Virus record (IMG/VR): IMGVR_UViG_3300025732_000161
Location: 1-32,460 of that record
Origin: a virus
Reading direction: 5' to 3' (one strand)
Length of the DNA: 32,460 nucleotides
The translations under genes were made by a program, and so were the position numbers. Of the stretch, positions 10,650-19,384 are shown piece by piece. The notes under the pieces are model-generated. The model saw nothing but the letters and a program-made list of their open reading frames with translations, was not told where the DNA came from and ran no database searches. Numbering within the stretch: the stretch's first letter is position 1; every line of letters begins with the position of its first letter.

Positions 10650-13600
10650 TTAATTCAATTTCTTTTTTAACTCATCAATTTGTTCTTGTTGCTCACGAAT
10701 TGCTTCAATCAATACTCCAATTAATCCATTATAATTTACAGTTTTATTTTCACTGGTGCTTACAAGTTCTGGGAAGATTTTTTCAACCTCTTGAGCAATT
10801 ACGCCCATAGACTGTTTATGAGTATCTTTCCATTCAAAATTAACTCCACGAATTTGAAGAATTTTATCAATTGGATTTTGTATTTGGATAATATTTGTCT
10901 TCAGATTAATATCAGAATTTGAATTGAAGTCTGAAGCAGTTACAATTCCGGTATAATTACCATTTAAAGCAGAAATAGTTCCCGTAGTTGCACTTATATT
11001 TCCATTAGCACTTATGTTTCCAGTAGCACTTATGTTTCCAGTAACACTAATTCCAGAAGAGGTTGTAGAAAGTTTTGAAGAATTATTAAAGAATAAAGAA
11101 ACTCCACCATCTCTTTGTAAAGTGATAGCATTATGAAAATCTGCATCGTTCTTTAAAAGTCTTAAATATACAACTTCATTAGCATTTGTATAGAATTCAA
11201 GATAGTGATCAGATGCAGGAGTAAAGTTAAGTTCTCCACTATTTCCAATAGTTAATGATCCAGAAGTCTGAAGAACCCCGTTAGAACTATTATCAAGTCT
11301 ATAAGTATAATCTGAAGTATCTGTTGCGGTGTTATGGAAATCAATATATCTACCAATTTCGATAACACCATCAGAAGAAACAATAGGATCAATATTCCAG
11401 CGATTTCCTGAAGAACTACCAGTAGTTCCAAGTCCAACAAATGATAAAGTTGTAATTCCAGTCTTAGAGTCGTACTGAGAATTAATTGAAATGTTTGTTC
11501 CGACAAATTTTATTAAACTAGAAAATCCAACATATCCACTACTAGTTGATACATTAACACCAGTTTGTGCAGCACCAACAGTATATCCACCAATCGCACC
11601 AAATAATTCCCATTGATTATTTGTGGTATAAACCCAACCTATAGTTCCTCCACTTGTTGGATTTGCATCATATTGAATATCTCCTGGGTTTCCAGCGAGA
11701 ATTGGAGTAGAAATTCCAACAGTGTACTTTCTAGAAACATCAACATTTCCTTGTAAGAATAAAGAACTTGCCTCAATACCCTTAATTGATGTTGATGTAA
11801 CTTTATCTCCAAATATTACAGGTCCATTAAATTCAGAAATAGCATTTCCTCCAGATCCTCCTTCAACTTTAATCGAACGACTAAAGTTTCCTTCAACTAG
11901 ATTAATAACATTCAGTGCTGGTTCATTACCAATATCTTCACCAGTTACAGTCTGAATTGGAGTATCAAAGATCTCTTCTTGTCCAGTAACTGTGCTTAAC
12001 TTCTTATTACCAGAGTATGAGATACCCTTATCATTCATACCAGTATAGAAGTTAATTCCACCTTCTCTTCTGGTCGATTGTGCAAGAAGTTCTTCCTGTG
12101 CAGAAATCTGACGATCTTGCTTATCTGGGAATGCGGTTGAATAATTACCAGGACCAAATCCAACATATTCAAAAGTATGTCCAGATGCACGAATGATAGA
12201 ATGTCTTCTCAATTCAACTGGAAGTGGATTAACTCTTCTTACGGTAGCACCTAAAGAATGAGTACTTGCCTTAGTTCCAAGAACTCCACGGAAAACTTTA
12301 ATTGGATCACCACTAACAATAGAACCAGAAACAGTTGTTTTGACTCTTACTAATTCATCTTCAATCTGCAAATAATCGCCAATTTTAATATCAAGTTTAT
12401 CAATTCCTGTAATTGTAATATCTTCCGTAGTTTCATCACCAACATTATAAAGTAAAGTTGTACTGATTCCAGCATAACTTACATTCATTCTTCCAGAAAT
12501 ATTTTCATAATTGGAAGAAATAGAACCATCATTTGAAGTAACACCCTCAGGATATGCATAAATTGTTCCAGATACTGAAGGAATAGTATTAGAAACTCCA
12601 ACATTAAGAATAAATGTTTTTAATCCAAGTTTTTGTTTTACAACAAAATCACCATTATAAAAACTTTGGGTGGATCCTGTAATTCTAATCTTATTATCTA
12701 CAGAGAATCCGTGGTTATCAATTGTCGTAACAGTTGCCAATCCAGTAACATTATTGTAAGTAATATTACTTACACGAATTGATTTGCCTGTAAGATACGC
12801 ATACGCATTTTGAGAAAGAGTTGATCCAACACCAACTGTCGAGAATCCAGAAATTGAATTTGAGGACGTAACTGTAAAACTCTTAGCAGCACCAACTACA
12901 ATATTTGTAATTCTATAAAGATCATTATACCCTTGTAAACTTTCCGAAGAAACACCAGAAACTCTTACGACATCACTAACGTTATTATAAATTTCAGCAA
13001 CTTGTACAATTGCTCTTATAAATCCAGTTGTTGTAGCAATACCTGTTACTGTAAGAGTATTACCAATTCCATATGCGCTACCTCCATCCATTATACGGAT
13101 ATCAGTAATATTACCAGAAGGATTAACTGCAACTCTTGCAGTTGCGTGATATCCTGTTGTTGATCCAGCAAATCCAACTAATCGTGCATTATAATAAGTC
13201 CCTCCAGATCCTTCACCATATCCAACACCACCATAAACAATATTGAGTTTTGTAATACGGTTTAATCCGTGATCAATTGTTGTGTGTACAGTATGAGTTG
13301 TTGAACTAGTAGAAACAATATTTGTAATTCCTACGCCAATGTTAGTATCAGATAGTATTTTAGATACAGTTTCTTTAGTGATACTATTGCGAACATCATT
13401 TACAACAACTTCTCCAATTAAAGAAGAAGATGCGAAAGATTTTGCCTCTTTTGGATCAGATACTGGATTATCACGGTTTGTTTGTGGATATAACTCTTTA
13501 ACAGGTTGAGAATAACTTTCTCCCGTAAAGGGTTGTACTACAGGAGTATTTGATGAGTTAACTATAGTTAAATAGTAAACACCATCTTGCTTTCCTGGAA

Positions 13601-16451
13601 CATATTTTTGTACTTCTTGATTCCTGTAGATATAATAAATGTTATTGTATCTCTTTCTCTTAAAATAAGGTAAAGAAGTAGTTCTAGATGACGTATTATT
13701 AGCAAATGTTCCTGGGTTTGTATTTAATCCAACAGAAAATTCTTTAGCACTACTAATTCCAGAAACAACATAAGTTCTATTAAATCCAGAATCTCCTATT
13801 CCAGTTGTATTAAATGTACTCTTAACATTTACAAGTTCAACCTGAGATCCTACTTTTAGATTATGAGGAAGTTCAGTGGTAATTTTTGCAGTACTAGACC
13901 CATCCCAAGAAGCATTTGCAATAAATTTGAAGTTTCTCTGTTCATCAAATTCCGTAAATGTCCCACTGTTAAAGTATTTTTGAATTTCAGTATCTGATGC
14001 TCCAGTAGTATCATTAGATTCTTGAAGAATAAATCCATCACTTGGCGGTCTTGCATACTTTTCAGATGTTCCTTTAGGAATTACATAACGAAGTCTATAA
14101 ATTGTATCTGATGCGTTTCTATTATACTTCTTACGTTTAATATAAGTTCTTGGTGTTGCTTCTCCAAGTCCACCAGTTCCAAGACTTACAATAATTGGTC
14201 TAATCGTATTATCTGTAGAAGATGTCGATACTTTTACATACCATTGACCAACAGTAGTATCATATTGAATCGGATGTCCAATATCTCCAGGAACTTTATC
14301 AGATACTCTACTTACAACTTTTAAAGAACCACCTTTATTGTTAAGGGTTATTTCTGATGCATCTTTAGCATCATTCAAAGTTTTTGCTATCTTAATAAGT
14401 GAAGTATCACCCGAAGTAAATCCACTACCAACATTTGTATTTGTAATAGCATAATAAACGGTATTTTGAATTATTCCCTCTGGTAGTTGTCCAGTTTCAC
14501 TTATAACACGAATAGATTCTCCATTCTCAAATGTATGTGGAGAAGTTAAAGTAATAATATTAGATGTAATGCTATTAATACCAATAGAACTTCTACCAAC
14601 ATTAAAAGACTTCTCAGAACTTGTCTGAGAATTAGGCATTACGATACGTGAACTATATTCGTTAGTTATTCCGCCACTTGAGATTAAAATTCGAATCGTA
14701 TCATTTTCTCTTGCACCAATTCTATACCCCTCAATAACGTGATTTGGAGAAACATCACGATTTTTTTCATTATACAAATATAACCTTTCATTTGTAGAGA
14801 CTCCTACAGTAGAAGAAACATCTATAGCACCAAATTCAATTGATATCTCTTCATTTGAAATTTCTTTTGGAGGGATAATATGAGTAATATATCCACGATC
14901 ATCTTGTGGGAATGCATTCTTTCTAAATCCAGAAGCAACAAGTGATTTTGATCCGAAGTTTGAGTTTGAGTTTGTAACAGATTGATCACCACCACTTTCT
15001 ACAGAAAAATGTTCCGCATATCCAATTGCAAATATAGAAACGTTCTGAATAAATGCATCATTAATACACTTAATATGGAAGTTTCTATATGAAGGTTTAT
15101 ATATTGCTCTTGAATTTGAACTTATAGTTTCATTTCCGGCAAAAGTATTATCTTTATATGTTCCCGTTGTTTCATCATAAAGAACAAATGCATTATTGTC
15201 TTTTTGAAGCCCAATTCCAGTGAATTGAGCAATGACCATAGATTTAAATCCAGAAGCCTTATCACCATCAGCAAGAACACCACACATACCATAAACAGAT
15301 CTCAATGAGAGGTTGAAAATGTACGGTGACGCTGAAGTTACAGTATCAGAAGATAATGATAACACAGATCCTATTGCAGAAGGAGCAGCAACAGTAGGTG
15401 CATTTTGCACTTTATACTTAATCTGAGTATCACTTACTTTTTCAGTTACAACAAAGTTTCCATCATATCCTTCTGCTGATATTCCTTCAATTCTAAAAGG
15501 AGTATCAACTTCCAATCCAGAAACAGCAGACTCCGTTGTTACGGTAATTGTCGTAGAAGAAGTTACTCCATCACCAGAACGAATACTTGTAATTCCTACA
15601 GATAATCCAGTAGAACCTACAATACGATATTCATCAATCTTAGGTTCAATATCAATTGAAGTTGAAGGATAATCTGGTTCAATAGAACGCCCAGATGATG
15701 CTCCATAAGCAAGACCAACTTTCTCATAATACATATCCAGATCTGTACGATCTGTAGAATATGTTTGGAATTCATCTTTAATTGATACTGGATTTACACC
15801 ATCAACATACTCAAAACAAGAAAGTTTATGGTGTGAGAAGTTTGGAACAAATAAGTTAGTAGTATAATCAATATAGCATTGTCCATTTGGATCCGCATCA
15901 AAGAGAGAAAACTGCCAGAAATAACAACCACCAGTTACTCGGAAAATAGAAGATCTTCCAATATTATCATTAATTGGATTTGGAACATACTTTGGACGAA
16001 TTTTTGTCTTTCTTAAATCTAATCCAATTAAAGAAGTTCCCCTTGGTACAATTACACCACCGTGAATACTATTAAGTTTATAAAGTGCATTACCAGGATC
16101 ACTAAGATCAAAGTTAGTTGATAATTCAAATGGAGGAAAGTTATTTGAAGTAGTACCGTTTCTTAATCTAAAATTATTAGATCCATCTGGTATCCATCCC
16201 GGACGGTTATCAATTATATGATCACCCGGATAAACTAAAATTGTAGTTTTACCAAATCTATCGTTATTCAGACCTCTCTGATATGAAAATCTTGCCGCTT
16301 CAACGAGTGCTCTTTGAATAGTTTTAAACGGACGAGTTAAACTATTTCCTTGATTTTCAATACTATCAGTAGCATCAAGACTGTTTGGATCAACATACAG
16401 AATATTACCACGAACAGACTTCAGAAAATTTTCCAGGCGTGAAAGACCCAT
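10650..16451 (-). CDS. Very large tail-fibre/adhesin protein with S74 chaperone, 1933 aa
   Basis: The N-terminus (residues about 16-75) resembles a beta-helix cap region (NILYVDPNSLDATD, SLTRPFKTIQRALVEAARF), followed by ILVYPGDHIIDNRPGW. Around 460-520 a block matches the other fibre genes (IQNVSIFAIGYAEHFSVES, NSNSNFGSKSLVASG). Several beta-rich repeats follow, including a GGVGYGEGSGGTYYNARL module and HTFEYVGFGPGNYSTAFP. The C-terminal 92 residues form an S74 intramolecular chaperone (NSNSDINLKTNI, MGVIAQEVEKIFPEL, NYNGLIGVLIEAI, then a coiled coil). I infer a trimeric virion fibre or large adhesin. It is the first gene after the accessory-island terminator and has its own late box (GATAAATA). 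No convincing Shine-Dalgarno sequence is seen directly before the ATG. Its length is exceptional, though giant fibres are common in this phage group. Confidence 0.88.
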   Translation of the reverse strand: MGLSRLENFLKSVRGNILYVDPNSLDATDSIENQGNSLTRPFKTIQRALVEAARFSYQRGLNNDRFGKTTILVYPGDHIIDNRPGWIPDGSNNFRLRNGTTSNNFPPFELSTNFDLSDPGNALYKLNSIHGGVIVPRGTSLIGLDLRKTKIRPKYVPNPINDNIGRSSIFRVTGGCYFWQFSLFDADPNGQCYIDYTTNLFVPNFSHHKLSCFEYVDGVNPVSIKDEFQTYSTDRTDLDMYYEKVGLAYGASSGRSIEPDYPSTSIDIEPKIDEYRIVGSTGLSVGITSIRSGDGVTSSTTITVTTESAVSGLEVDTPFRIEGISAEGYDGNFVVTEKVSDTQIKYKVQNAPTVAAPSAIGSVLSLSSDTVTSASPYIFNLSLRSVYGMCGVLADGDKASGFKSMVIAQFTGIGLQKDNNAFVLYDETTGTYKDNTFAGNETISSNSRAIYKPSYRNFHIKCINDAFIQNVSIFAIGYAEHFSVESGGDQSVTNSNSNFGSKSLVASGFRKNAFPQDDRGYITHIIPPKEISNEEISIEFGAIDVSSTVGVSTNERLYLYNEKNRDVSPNHVIEGYRIGARENDTIRILISSGGITNEYSSRIVMPNSQTSSEKSFNVGRSSIGINSITSNIITLTSPHTFENGESIRVISETGQLPEGIIQNTVYYAITNTNVGSGFTSGDTSLIKIAKTLNDAKDASEITLNNKGGSLKVVSRVSDKVPGDIGHPIQYDTTVGQWYVKVSTSSTDNTIRPIIVSLGTGGLGEATPRTYIKRKKYNRNASDTIYRLRYVIPKGTSEKYARPPSDGFILQESNDTTGASDTEIQKYFNSGTFTEFDEQRNFKFIANASWDGSSTAKITTELPHNLKVGSQVELVNVKSTFNTTGIGDSGFNRTYVVSGISSAKEFSVGLNTNPGTFANNTSSRTTSLPYFKRKRYNNIYYIYRNQEVQKYVPGKQDGVYYLTIVNSSNTPVVQPFTGESYSQPVKELYPQTNRDNPVSDPKEAKSFASSSLIGEVVVNDVRNSITKETVSKILSDTNIGVGITNIVSTSSTTHTVHTTIDHGLNRITKLNIVYGGVGYGEGSGGTYYNARLVGFAGSTTGYHATARVAVNPSGNITDIRIMDGGSAYGIGNTLTVTGIATTTGFIRAIVQVAEIYNNVSDVVRVSGVSSESLQGYNDLYRITNIVVGAAKSFTVTSSNSISGFSTVGVGSTLSQNAYAYLTGKSIRVSNITYNNVTGLATVTTIDNHGFSVDNKIRITGSTQSFYNGDFVVKQKLGLKTFILNVGVSNTIPSVSGTIYAYPEGVTSNDGSISSNYENISGRMNVSYAGISTTLLYNVGDETTEDITITGIDKLDIKIGDYLQIEDELVRVKTTVSGSIVSGDPIKVFRGVLGTKASTHSLGATVRRVNPLPVELRRHSIIRASGHTFEYVGFGPGNYSTAFPDKQDRQISAQEELLAQSTRREGGINFYTGMNDKGISYSGNKKLSTVTGQEEIFDTPIQTVTGEDIGNEPALNVINLVEGNFSRSIKVEGGSGGNAISEFNGPVIFGDKVTSTSIKGIEASSLFLQGNVDVSRKYTVGISTPILAGNPGDIQYDANPTSGGTIGWVYTTNNQWELFGAIGGYTVGAAQTGVNVSTSSGYVGFSSLIKFVGTNISINSQYDSKTGITTLSFVGLGTTGSSSGNRWNIDPIVSSDGVIEIGRYIDFHNTATDTSDYTYRLDNSSNGVLQTSGSLTIGNSGELNFTPASDHYLEFYTNANEVVYLRLLKNDADFHNAITLQRDGGVSLFFNNSSKLSTTSSGISVTGNISATGNISANGNISATTGTISALNGNYTGIVTASDFNSNSDINLKTNIIQIQNPIDKILQIRGVNFEWKDTHKQSMGVIAQEVEKIFPELVSTSENKTVNYNGLIGVLIEAIREQQEQIDELKKKLN

Positions 16452-16482
16452 CTTATTAATACTTATAGTTTCCGTTATAAGT

Positions 16483-16490
16483 TATTTATC
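16483..16490 (-). promoter_or_regulatory. Late promoter box GATAAATA
   Basis: GATAAATA on the minus strand differs from the T4 late consensus at one base. It lies between the island terminator and the 1933-aa gene, about 30 bases before the ATG. It would restart late transcription after the terminator. Confidence 0.6.
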
Positions 16491-16496
16491 TACAAG

Positions 16497-16521
16497 AAAA
16501 CCTCCTACAAGAGGAGGTTTT
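16497..16521 (-). terminator. Perfect hairpin terminator (probably bidirectional)
   Basis: A 10-bp perfect stem (AAAACCTCCT / AGGAGGTTTT) with a 5-base loop has a T-run on both sides. It lies 5 bases after the stop of the Mom-like gene and before the late box of the 1933-aa gene. It would end transcription of the accessory island. Confidence 0.85.
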
Positions 16522-16526
16522 ACAAG

Positions 16527-17174
16527 TCACACGGAAGGAGTTTGGTTAGTATCGCCTTGATTATTATACCACTTCTCTTCTTTCCAAGTCAAGTTTTTTT
16601 GTAGTTGTCTATCAAATACCATCAAATATCTATGTTTACGACTTCTTTCTCTCCATTCACCTTCAGAACCTTTTACTTTACCTCGTGAATGTTTAGTTCC
16701 GTCTGAATAGTAGAAATCTTTTTTTGAATCTGTAAGACCGTAATACTTAAAGTTACAAGCCCGATAAATTGTACCACTATGAAAGTCATTATCAGCATAT
16801 GAGAGGATTGCTTTGACTTCAGTATCCTTTCGCAGTTGTCTAATCGCTTTTGAAACGAACCAAGAAGTGATATTATACTCGCTCTGTTGAGTTTGCGGAT
16901 GAATACAGAGTCTTGAGAGTTCAAAGAGTCCTTGTTGCTCATTTCTTTCAAGTCCAAAAGCGCCTTTTGCAATTTCTGGAACTGGTAGTCCTGTGAAAAT
17001 CACGACCCCCTTTAATCCACCAATATTTAGAGGTGAGAACTCATTTCTTTGAAACAATCCATAATTCCAACCACTTTTGAAACTTTTTGAAATATCTTTA
17101 AGATAATGATATTGAAGTAAAAGTTCCTCTGCTTGCTTTTTGGAAACTACATCAATATAAAAATCAGATTTCAT
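16527..17174 (-). CDS. Mom-like DNA adenine-modification protein (GNAT-type fold)
   Basis: This 215-residue protein resembles phage Mu Mom, which adds a methylcarbamoyl group to adenine in phage DNA and so blocks many restriction enzymes. Visible family features in order are GLKGVVIFTGLP (residues about 53-64), FELSRLCIHP (84-93), ITSWFVSKAIRQL (102-114), ILSYADNDFHSGTIYRACNF (123-142) and the C-terminal basic KHRYLMVF (180-187). The ELSR strand, the SYAD strand and the GTIY-N motif are those I associate with the Mom family. The start overlaps the stop of the 57-aa gene (ATGA), so the two are translationally coupled. It is the last gene before a strong terminator in a sigma70-promoter cassette. 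Anti-restriction is the likely role, by inference. An unrelated GNAT-like acetyltransferase is the main alternative. Confidence 0.78.
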   Translation of the reverse strand: MKSDFYIDVVSKKQAEELLLQYHYLKDISKSFKSGWNYGLFQRNEFSPLNIGGLKGVVIFTGLPVPEIAKGAFGLERNEQQGLFELSRLCIHPQTQQSEYNITSWFVSKAIRQLRKDTEVKAILSYADNDFHSGTIYRACNFKYYGLTDSKKDFYYSDGTKHSRGKVKGSEGEWRERSRKHRYLMVFDRQLQKNLTWKEEKWYNNQGDTNQTPSV

Positions 17175-17344
17175 TCAAATTGCTTACATTCCATCATATA
17201 TTCTACAGTATTTGCTACATCATTCATAGCATCACGCAAAAATGGTTGTTGTCCTGATTCTTGCCTTACAATGGGCCTTGAATCATCAGTTAGAATCCAT
17301 CGCCACTGTTTCATAGATTCGCAGTACCAGAGTTGCACCTTCAT
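17171..17344 (-). CDS. Small hypothetical protein, 57 aa, coupled to Mom-like gene
   Basis: This is a short frame of 57 codons from ATG at 17342-17344 to TGA at 17171-17173. The protein begins MKVQLWYCESMKQWRW, continues ILTDDSRPIVRQES and ends VEYMMECKQFE. It is rich in Trp, Gln and Met. Its stop overlaps the Mom-like start (ATGA), the arrangement expected for coupled translation, and this supports it as a real gene despite its size. In phage Mu, mom is likewise preceded by an overlapping small gene (com) that controls mom translation, but this protein lacks the paired cysteines of the Com zinc finger (only two separated cysteines are seen), so homology to Com is not supported. Function unknown. 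No clear ribosome site precedes the ATG. Confidence 0.65.
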   Translation of the reverse strand: MKVQLWYCESMKQWRWILTDDSRPIVRQESGQQPFLRDAMNDVANTVEYMMECKQFE

Positions 17345-17366: not shown

Positions 17367-17439
17367 AGCCCTCATTCGGAATCGAACCGAAAATCTTCCG
17401 CTTACAAGGCGGATGCAGTAACCGTTATGCTATAAGGGC
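17367..17439 (-). tRNA. tRNA-Thr(UGU)
   Basis: The cloverleaf is complete: 7-bp acceptor (GCCCTTA/TGAGGGC, one G-U), D arm GCA..TGC, 5-bp anticodon stem TCCGC/GCGGA with loop CTTGTAA (anticodon TGT), and T arm TTCGG TTCGATT CCGAA. CCA is not encoded. It begins one base after the stop of the 89-aa gene, so it is probably cut from the same transcript. It reads ACA codons, which suits this AT-rich, Thr-rich phage. Confidence 0.95.
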
Positions 17440-18358: not shown

Positions 18359-19384
18359 TCAAACAAAACCAATCCGTTTTAAATGAGTTGTTATGAAGGT
18401 ACTTATATCGACAGTTGCTGCTCCGTTTGCAATTTGACTTGGTGTTGGTAATGAATTTCCTGGCGGAATTAAACGAGGATCCCCTATGTACTCTTGAATT
18501 TGTTCATGATCATACGTATTAACACCAATATACAAACATAAAGATCTCCCTATTCCAAAAGGCTCTAATGAATCTATAAAATCTATAGCAATTTGTCTTC
18601 TTTCACTAGTACCTCTAGTACACATTAAAAATTCAGTAACAATTCCAGAAGAAACGAATAAAGTTGGAGATCCATCAGTATAAATTTCATTTTGTTGCGC
18701 TGTACTTGAAAAGTCATTAAATGCTCTACCTGAATCATACGGAACACCAAATGCATTTTTAGTCATAACTACAGTTTCAGGATTAGAGTCCACTAGACCA
18801 TCAAAAGCATTAAGACCAGCACTATCTAAAGAAACACAAGCACGTATACAAGAAGTCGCAATTCCAACATTATTGATATATGAGGTGTTAGTACAAAGTA
18901 ATGTTGCTAAATGTGCTCCTGCGCTATGACCAAAAACTGCAATTCTATCTGGATCTCCTCCATAATCTTGAATGTTATCTCTGACCCATTTTAAAGCATT
19001 TGCAACATCTTTTATATGTGTTGGGTGTTTTACTCTATTTACATCCCAACTTACATAATCATCATTTCCAGATGCAACCCAAGCTGTAGTAATTCCAAAT
19101 GGTCTACTCAATCTATAATTAATACTCACATAAATGCAGCCTAACTCATTAAAAAATTTAGGTTTATAAGCATCATATTGATTTTTGTCTCCAAGAACCC
19201 AAGCGCCGCCATGAATCATAAAAATGACTGGTTTTTTTACGGGAACGTTTGGTCCTTCATTAAAATGGTAAACATTCAAATCAATAGAAGGTTTTAATTC
19301 ATCAAAATTATTCAACCAAGATACAAAACTATAAGCAATTCCCACACTATTAGGAGTGTTACTCATTATAATTGATACCGTCAT
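18359..19384 (-). CDS. Alpha/beta-hydrolase (HSL/BD-FAE-like putative esterase) in the tail gene cluster
   Basis: This 341-residue protein has the alpha/beta-hydrolase layout of hormone-sensitive-lipase or BD-FAE type esterases: VIFMIHGGAWVLGDK with the HGGAW oxyanion motif (residues 58-62), INYRLS (88-93), DVANALKWVRDNIQDYGGDPDRIAVFGHSAGAH region with nucleophile Ser154 in GHSAG, and a C-terminal DHEQI with candidate catalytic His293. The usual acidic residue after the sixth strand is not obvious; the strand SPTLFVSSGIV is followed by Glu251 in TEFL. There is no signal peptide. The ribosome site AGGAG lies nine bases before the ATG, and the gene is one base after the fibre-like gene. I infer carbohydrate or acyl-ester removal from the host surface, perhaps on the virion. 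A metabolic esterase cannot be excluded. Confidence 0.82.
   Translation of the reverse strand: MTVSIIMSNTPNSVGIAYSFVSWLNNFDELKPSIDLNVYHFNEGPNVPVKKPVIFMIHGGAWVLGDKNQYDAYKPKFFNELGCIYVSINYRLSRPFGITTAWVASGNDDYVSWDVNRVKHPTHIKDVANALKWVRDNIQDYGGDPDRIAVFGHSAGAHLATLLCTNTSYINNVGIATSCIRACVSLDSAGLNAFDGLVDSNPETVVMTKNAFGVPYDSGRAFNDFSSTAQQNEIYTDGSPTLFVSSGIVTEFLMCTRGTSERRQIAIDFIDSLEPFGIGRSLCLYIGVNTYDHEQIQEYIGDPRLIPPGNSLPTPSQIANGAATVDISTFITTHLKRIGFV

Follow-up and report, generated by a model that had tools for sequence, protein, structure and literature searches.

A stand-alone Mom-family gene at two insertion sites in T4-like cyanophage genomes

The mom locus

The window analysed here is the whole of the IMG/VR record IMGVR_UViG_3300025732_000161 (32,460 bases), in which the Mom family of DNA-modification proteins is matched once. 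These enzymes, known from phage Mu, alter adenines chemically and thereby hide phage DNA from the restriction systems of bacteria. A sequence-only reading had picked out a 215-aa frame whose start is overlapped by a 57-aa frame through a shared ATGA, and both frames and the overlap are present. In the direction of transcription the features of the locus are as follows.

17367–17439, minus strand: tRNA-Thr, upstream of the small gene; relatives lacking mom in this gap share the gene order
17171–17344, minus strand: small gene upstream of mom, 57 aa, phrog_2818 (function unknown); a resident cyanophage gene, judged a bystander
17171–17174, minus strand: ATGA start/stop overlap of the small gene and mom, probably a translational coupling; the junctions of relatives differ
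16527–17174, minus strand: Mom-family gene, 215 aa, with motif residues H23, Y24, E85, R88, S104, S125, D128 and Y137
16530–16556, minus strand: final nine codons of mom (GDTNQTPSV), which resemble DNA 3' of the mom stop in loci L025 and L070; residues 206–215 are predicted to be disordered
16497–16521, minus strand: terminator-like hairpin, separating mom from the fibre gene
16481–16490, minus strand: GATAAATAAC, ahead of the fibre gene, a putative T4-late-promoter-like element
10650–16451, minus strand: large tail-fibre gene downstream of mom, the right border of mom insertion site A

The flanks of mom are T4-like cyanophage genes (tail-fibre gene, tRNA-Thr and tRNA-Leu) in an order that matches S-SM2, Bellamy and SynMITS9220M01, and the cyanophage setting proposed from the sequence is borne out by this cyanophage-like genome. 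From the same gene order, the hosts of the mom-bearing phages would be cyanobacteria. No restriction endonuclease gene adjoins mom in the window, where its neighbours are the phrog_2818 small gene and the fibre gene. Elsewhere in the window, among the tail genes, lies a gene for a 341-aa carboxylesterase-like alpha/beta hydrolase (18359–19384, minus strand; COesterase E 1e-23), possibly a host-surface esterase, whose cluster was found elsewhere only in L001 among the loci compared.

One scan returned 431 stretches related to the window Mom. The loci used from the scans were the best 80 of these 431 and the best 80 of 131, and complete Mom ORFs were obtained from 195 of 198 loci; 56 loci on genome contigs were left outside the analyses. 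A 66-row protein alignment holds 65 loci, taken from 84 representatives, and the window. The best 80 of the 431 are all metagenomic IMG/VR records, mostly fragments, and together with the window they place mom between the small gene and the tail-fibre gene (site A, 39 loci) or between gp32 and the baseplate wedge gene gp53 (site B, 41 loci), with one unplaced (L068). Three loci from a later scan (L210, L211 and L213) are also of the site-A kind.

A Mom-family protein with a GNAT fold

The 215-aa protein had been assigned to the Mom family from its motifs, and that assignment is upheld by profile, fold and conserved residues. The protein matches PF25680 Mom with an E-value of 4.4e-27 (95.5 bits, the cut-off being 27.1; residues 4–200) and phrog_1384, 'Mom-like DNA modification protein', with an E-value of 1.4e-35; Mu Mom matches the same two families, scoring 253 bits against PF25680. 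Searches against NCBIfam and by PADLOC gave no match, and a PDB search by sequence yielded nothing beyond a weak match to thymidylate kinase, attributable to chance. The structure predicted with AlphaFold from the 66 proteins (mean pLDDT 87.7, pTM 0.83) has Mu Mom as its top PDB match (8bv8, an S124A mutant that is inactive according to its title), with a Foldseek E-value of 3.1e-11 and a VIA Z of 18.8 across 181 residues, the runner-up chain reaching 14.0.

The motifs named in the earlier reading are all found, ELSR at residues 85–88, SYAD at 125–128 and GTIY at 134–137 with N141. H23, Y24, E85, R88, S125, D128, Y137 and K180 are identical in 66 of 66 aligned proteins, as is G134, and N141 is nearly invariant. 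Position S104, which aligns with Mu S124, is serine in 64 of the 66 and threonine in two. Fifteen columns are identical among eight aligned Mom proteins, Mu Mom included, and the window Mom keeps them; H23, Y24, R88, D128 and Y137 presumably correspond to residues that are important in Mu Mom. Both computational tests against the Mom identity fail to overturn it, because the best structural match is Mu Mom and no unrelated acetyltransferase, and because the key motif residues are kept in homologues and not lost. The 215-aa protein is a genuine Mom-family protein with a GNAT fold. That it is instead an ordinary GNAT acetyltransferase whose substrate is protein, tRNA or a small molecule, and only distantly akin to Mom, would fit the GNAT folds that fill the PDB list beneath Mu Mom, but Mu Mom comes first by both structural methods (Z 18.8 versus 14.0) and the Mom-specific Pfam and PHROG profiles cover nearly the entire protein, which makes this reading very unlikely.

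Selection on the gene was estimated from hand-picked sets of 13 site-A and 12 site-B sequences, omitting pairs whose dS was undefined or at least 2.5. The median dN/dS of mom is 0.16 at site A (76 pairs) and 0.085 at site B (66 pairs), and mom is therefore under strong purifying selection. The C-terminal tails of the proteins vary in length and are partly made of spacer DNA, as might be expected of a functionless, decaying hitch-hiker, but with strong purifying selection and with the motif residues kept such a reading is scarcely credible. We consider it very probable that the gene encodes a stand-alone Mom-family DNA-modification enzyme of a T4-like cyanophage, including the account of its site insertion and transfer given below.

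From fold, residues and family, the enzyme most likely modifies phage DNA at N6 of adenine as a protection from restriction. Mom would be made from a transcript shared by the small gene and mom, via translational coupling where the frames overlap, and would attach a group derived from acyl-CoA to the adenines of the phage DNA at N6, so that host restriction enzymes would fail to cut it. Other acyl groups or other substrates are also conceivable for a Mom fold.

The small upstream gene

The overlap of the two frames had been likened to the com/mom arrangement of phage Mu, with the suggestion that the 57-aa product might be a novel control protein. Mu Com is described as a 62-aa CCCC zinc finger which binds mom mRNA (PMC6483171). 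The 57-aa protein does lack the paired cysteines of Com, as had been remarked, C8 being the sole invariant cysteine in 20 aligned relatives. It matches phrog_2818 (E 4.4e-27) instead of the Com family PF10122, and its search against Pfam gave no match and no zinc ribbon. The Com profile has no match in the window or in 24 of 24 related records, and the same search recovers Mu Com. With a median dN/dS of 0.13 (73 pairs), the small ORF is a real gene. Its product is predicted to adopt a beta-beta-beta-alpha fold, for which the PDB search gave nothing usable (best E 0.24); the weak rows of that search include some dsRNA-binding domains, too weak for use.

Relatives of the small gene occur in 82 phage records, all of which are named as Synechococcus phages or cyanophages. 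In S-SM2, Bellamy and SynMITS9220M01 a homologue lies between the same fibre gene and tRNA-Thr, in a gap without mom, and in Synechococcus phage DSL-LC03 the homologue is about 98 kb from the Mom-like gene by record coordinates. The moms of site B have no such small gene upstream. Among 25 distinct stretches spanning the small gene and mom, drawn from 42 site-A loci with the window included, the frames overlap in 20, by 4 bases (ATGA) in twelve, 8 bases in one, 11 bases in four and 14 bases in three; the remaining junctions are gaps of 9–10 bases (three) or contain an insertion of 548 or 676 bases (two). No leader hairpin like that of Mu is predicted at the mom start in five site-A sequences (RNA folding z from +1.20 to -0.43).

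An operon of the com/mom kind, in which the 57-aa protein would activate mom translation in the manner of Com in Mu, is consistent with the conservation of the small protein, its predicted fold and the overlap of frames in most of the distinct site-A sequences, although this overlap would also fit some benefit from coupling. Set against these are the presence of the small gene beside the fibre gene where the gap has no mom, its distance from the Mom-like gene in DSL-LC03, its absence upstream of the site-B moms, the several kinds of junction, and the lack of both a Com profile match and a predicted hairpin; a control protein of this kind is highly improbable. The parallel with Mu is not supported. 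The small gene looks like an older resident neighbour and no Com-like regulator, and we conclude that its coupling with mom is a by-product of the insertion of mom at the 3' end of a resident gene. The close packing of the frames where they overlap may help translation of mom.

Exchange of mom between phage lineages

Both sites are also found empty. Site A is without mom in S-SM2, Bellamy and SynMITS9220M01, and gp32 adjoins gp53 with no mom between them in S-SRM01, DSL-LC03, S-SKS1 and P-SSM2, as well as in all eight of the A-type records with a gp32 match (nine records searched). In a comparison of six A and nine B phages picked by hand, which would have excluded near-identical mom pairs, mean identity across A–B pairs is 82.5% for mom and 63.2% for gp32, with mom the higher in 54 of 54 pairs; the corresponding values are 85.3% and 81.2% within A (15 pairs) and 88.6% and 79.8% within B (36 pairs). 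As mom is the closer of the two across A–B pairs, it has passed between the two phage lineages and settled at unrelated, non-homologous genome sites. In the protein tree 37 of the 39 site-A rows fall in one supported set, along with L068 and three rows that are more distant; L048 and L071 lie outside it with weak support, and the minimum number of site changes is two.

At site A, mom would have arrived as cargo in the gap that separates the resident small gene from the tail-fibre gene; relatives of it lie after gp32 at site B. At the 3' border of site A, the mom of L010 ends within a spacer common to Bellamy and S-SM2, and in L025 and L070 the DNA resembling the last codons of the window mom lies past the mom stop. 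Other ORFs (146 aa in L052, 217 aa in L072) are located between the flanking gene and mom, so that cargo of various kinds can enter either gap.

In most site-B loci the mom ATG comes immediately after TATAAT, a G+C-rich hairpin and a T-run, which lie in the 40 bases ahead of mom. This hairpin was considered as a mom-specific control element like that of Mu and rejected, since a hairpin of this kind also follows the gp32 stop in S-SRM01, which has no mom at this site; the simplest view is that it is the gp32 terminator, with mom inserted behind it. Expression of site-B mom (loci among L030–L080) must then come from read-through of the gp32 terminator or start before it.

Homing endonucleases in the mom gaps

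Endonuclease genes share the gap with mom in eight of 81 loci, amounting to about five distinct arrangements since several are near-identical pairs. Genes of the GIY-YIG/NUMOD3 type are found at site A in L047 and L049 and at site B in L043, L044, L074 and L076, and HNH-type genes at site B in L040 and L050; no homing-endonuclease gene adjoining mom was found in the window. Downstream of an intact mom, L040 and L050 have the endonuclease gene and, behind it, an orphan mom 3' end (approximately codons 165–197) at the normal position ahead of gp53. This is most simply read as an endonuclease cassette that entered mom, bringing its own mom 3' end. A single endonuclease travelling with mom was considered and set aside: the GIY-YIG proteins at sites A and B share a cluster and are only 48% identical, and hence do not represent one recently moved unit.

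In T4, the homing endonuclease gene segG adjoins gene 32, between 32 and 59, and several of the homing endonuclease genes are described as promoter-less cassettes (PMC2988022). 'HEG-islands' carrying cargo genes have also been proposed (PMC10448857). Both mom gaps take up homing-endonuclease genes too, the recombination of which probably helped mom to spread, and we regard mom as cargo of exchange hot spots. The idea that the endonucleases themselves carried mom is suggestive only, because the gap is shared in just eight of the 81 loci.

The same co-location bears on what the modification is for. In a conflict between phages, it would mask a phage's own DNA against the homing endonucleases of co-infecting relatives, instead of or besides countering host restriction. 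The GIY-YIG/NUMOD3 and HNH genes in the mom gaps, the HNH scar inside mom and the matches of Mom-like segments to profiles and models of proteins named HNH or homing endonucleases are in line with this. The co-location may, however, reflect nothing more than an insertion hot spot, and in most loci the gap is free of endonucleases; we consider such a role unlikely. Still further along this line, mom may move between T4-like lineages with homing endonucleases as the immunity half of a mobile unit, marking adenines at endonuclease targets so that carriers beat co-infecting phages whose DNA is unmodified (marker exclusion) and gain protection from restriction as a by-product; this we hold to be distinctly unlikely. 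Modification against host restriction remains the preferred role.

Relation to known Mom systems

The Mom family is already known, and Mom-like genes are annotated in many phages, including one cyanophage. The window Mom shares PF25680, the GNAT-type fold and the 15 common residues with Mu Mom (PDB 8bv8; NC_000929 Mup55), but is only about 22% identical to it, has no com and lies beside the tail-fibre gene of a T4-like phage. The annotated cyanophage protein, that of DSL-LC03 (WJZ47913.1), also belongs to PF25680 (E 7.6e-35), yet is 26% identical to the window Mom, and its gene is overlapped by a preceding gene annotated as a type II restriction endonuclease, a partner which the window Mom lacks. 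The closest record in the phage collection is the gp15 region of Roseobacter phage CRP-212 (MZ892988; 54.6% identical), where, unlike in the window, the Mom domain runs on into a MazG domain and the gene context is different. A protective role has been proposed for the Mom domain of jumbo-phage Mom-REase fusions (Iyer et al. 2021, PMC7824862), whereas the window protein is single-domain and has no nuclease. The HEG-islands, in which phage genes flanked by homing endonucleases are common to distant phages, offer a partial parallel, but their cargo is described as essential (PMC10448857), while mom is an accessory modification gene whose gap contains endonucleases in only a minority of the loci.

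No paper on Mom in cyanophages was found in the limited collection of papers searched, and as far as that literature goes the new elements are the stand-alone cyanophage Mom clade with its two sites, the evidence that mom was transferred, and the homing scar. This clade of stand-alone enzymes in metagenomic T4-like cyanophages is hardly visible among the isolates searched, in which the nearest relative is the CRP-212 protein. Mobility is the interesting part of the finding: phage genomes that are otherwise conserved can gain or lose a Mom-type modification gene. This ties the evasion of restriction to gene exchange driven by homing, and the loci constitute a concrete set for testing both.

Other Mom variants were seen alongside this clade. 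A second phage Mom subtype (L089:2385-3555, L096–L175) has an overlapping upstream ORF that is a type II restriction endonuclease by the DSL-LC03 annotation; the DSL-LC03 ORF itself gives a weak EcoO109I-like match below the cut-off (E 0.0088). Of the 80 loci listed for the DSL-LC03 query, 43 have an ORF of this endonuclease cluster upstream of mom, and it overlaps mom by 38 bases in the six listed examples with such an ORF; the two genes may constitute a phage-borne restriction-modification pair based on Mom. Eleven loci among L128–L142 have a second Mom-like ORF upstream of the first, recognised by eye from HYSG, ELVRLCR and SYAD, and are possible tandem Mom genes. In CRP-212 (L084:2995-3909) Mom and a MazG nucleotide pyrophosphohydrolase domain form one fusion protein, and the deposited start falls within the Mom part. 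The record of L047 contains a second Mom match (G008:C1:137108-137704) with one in-frame internal TGA.
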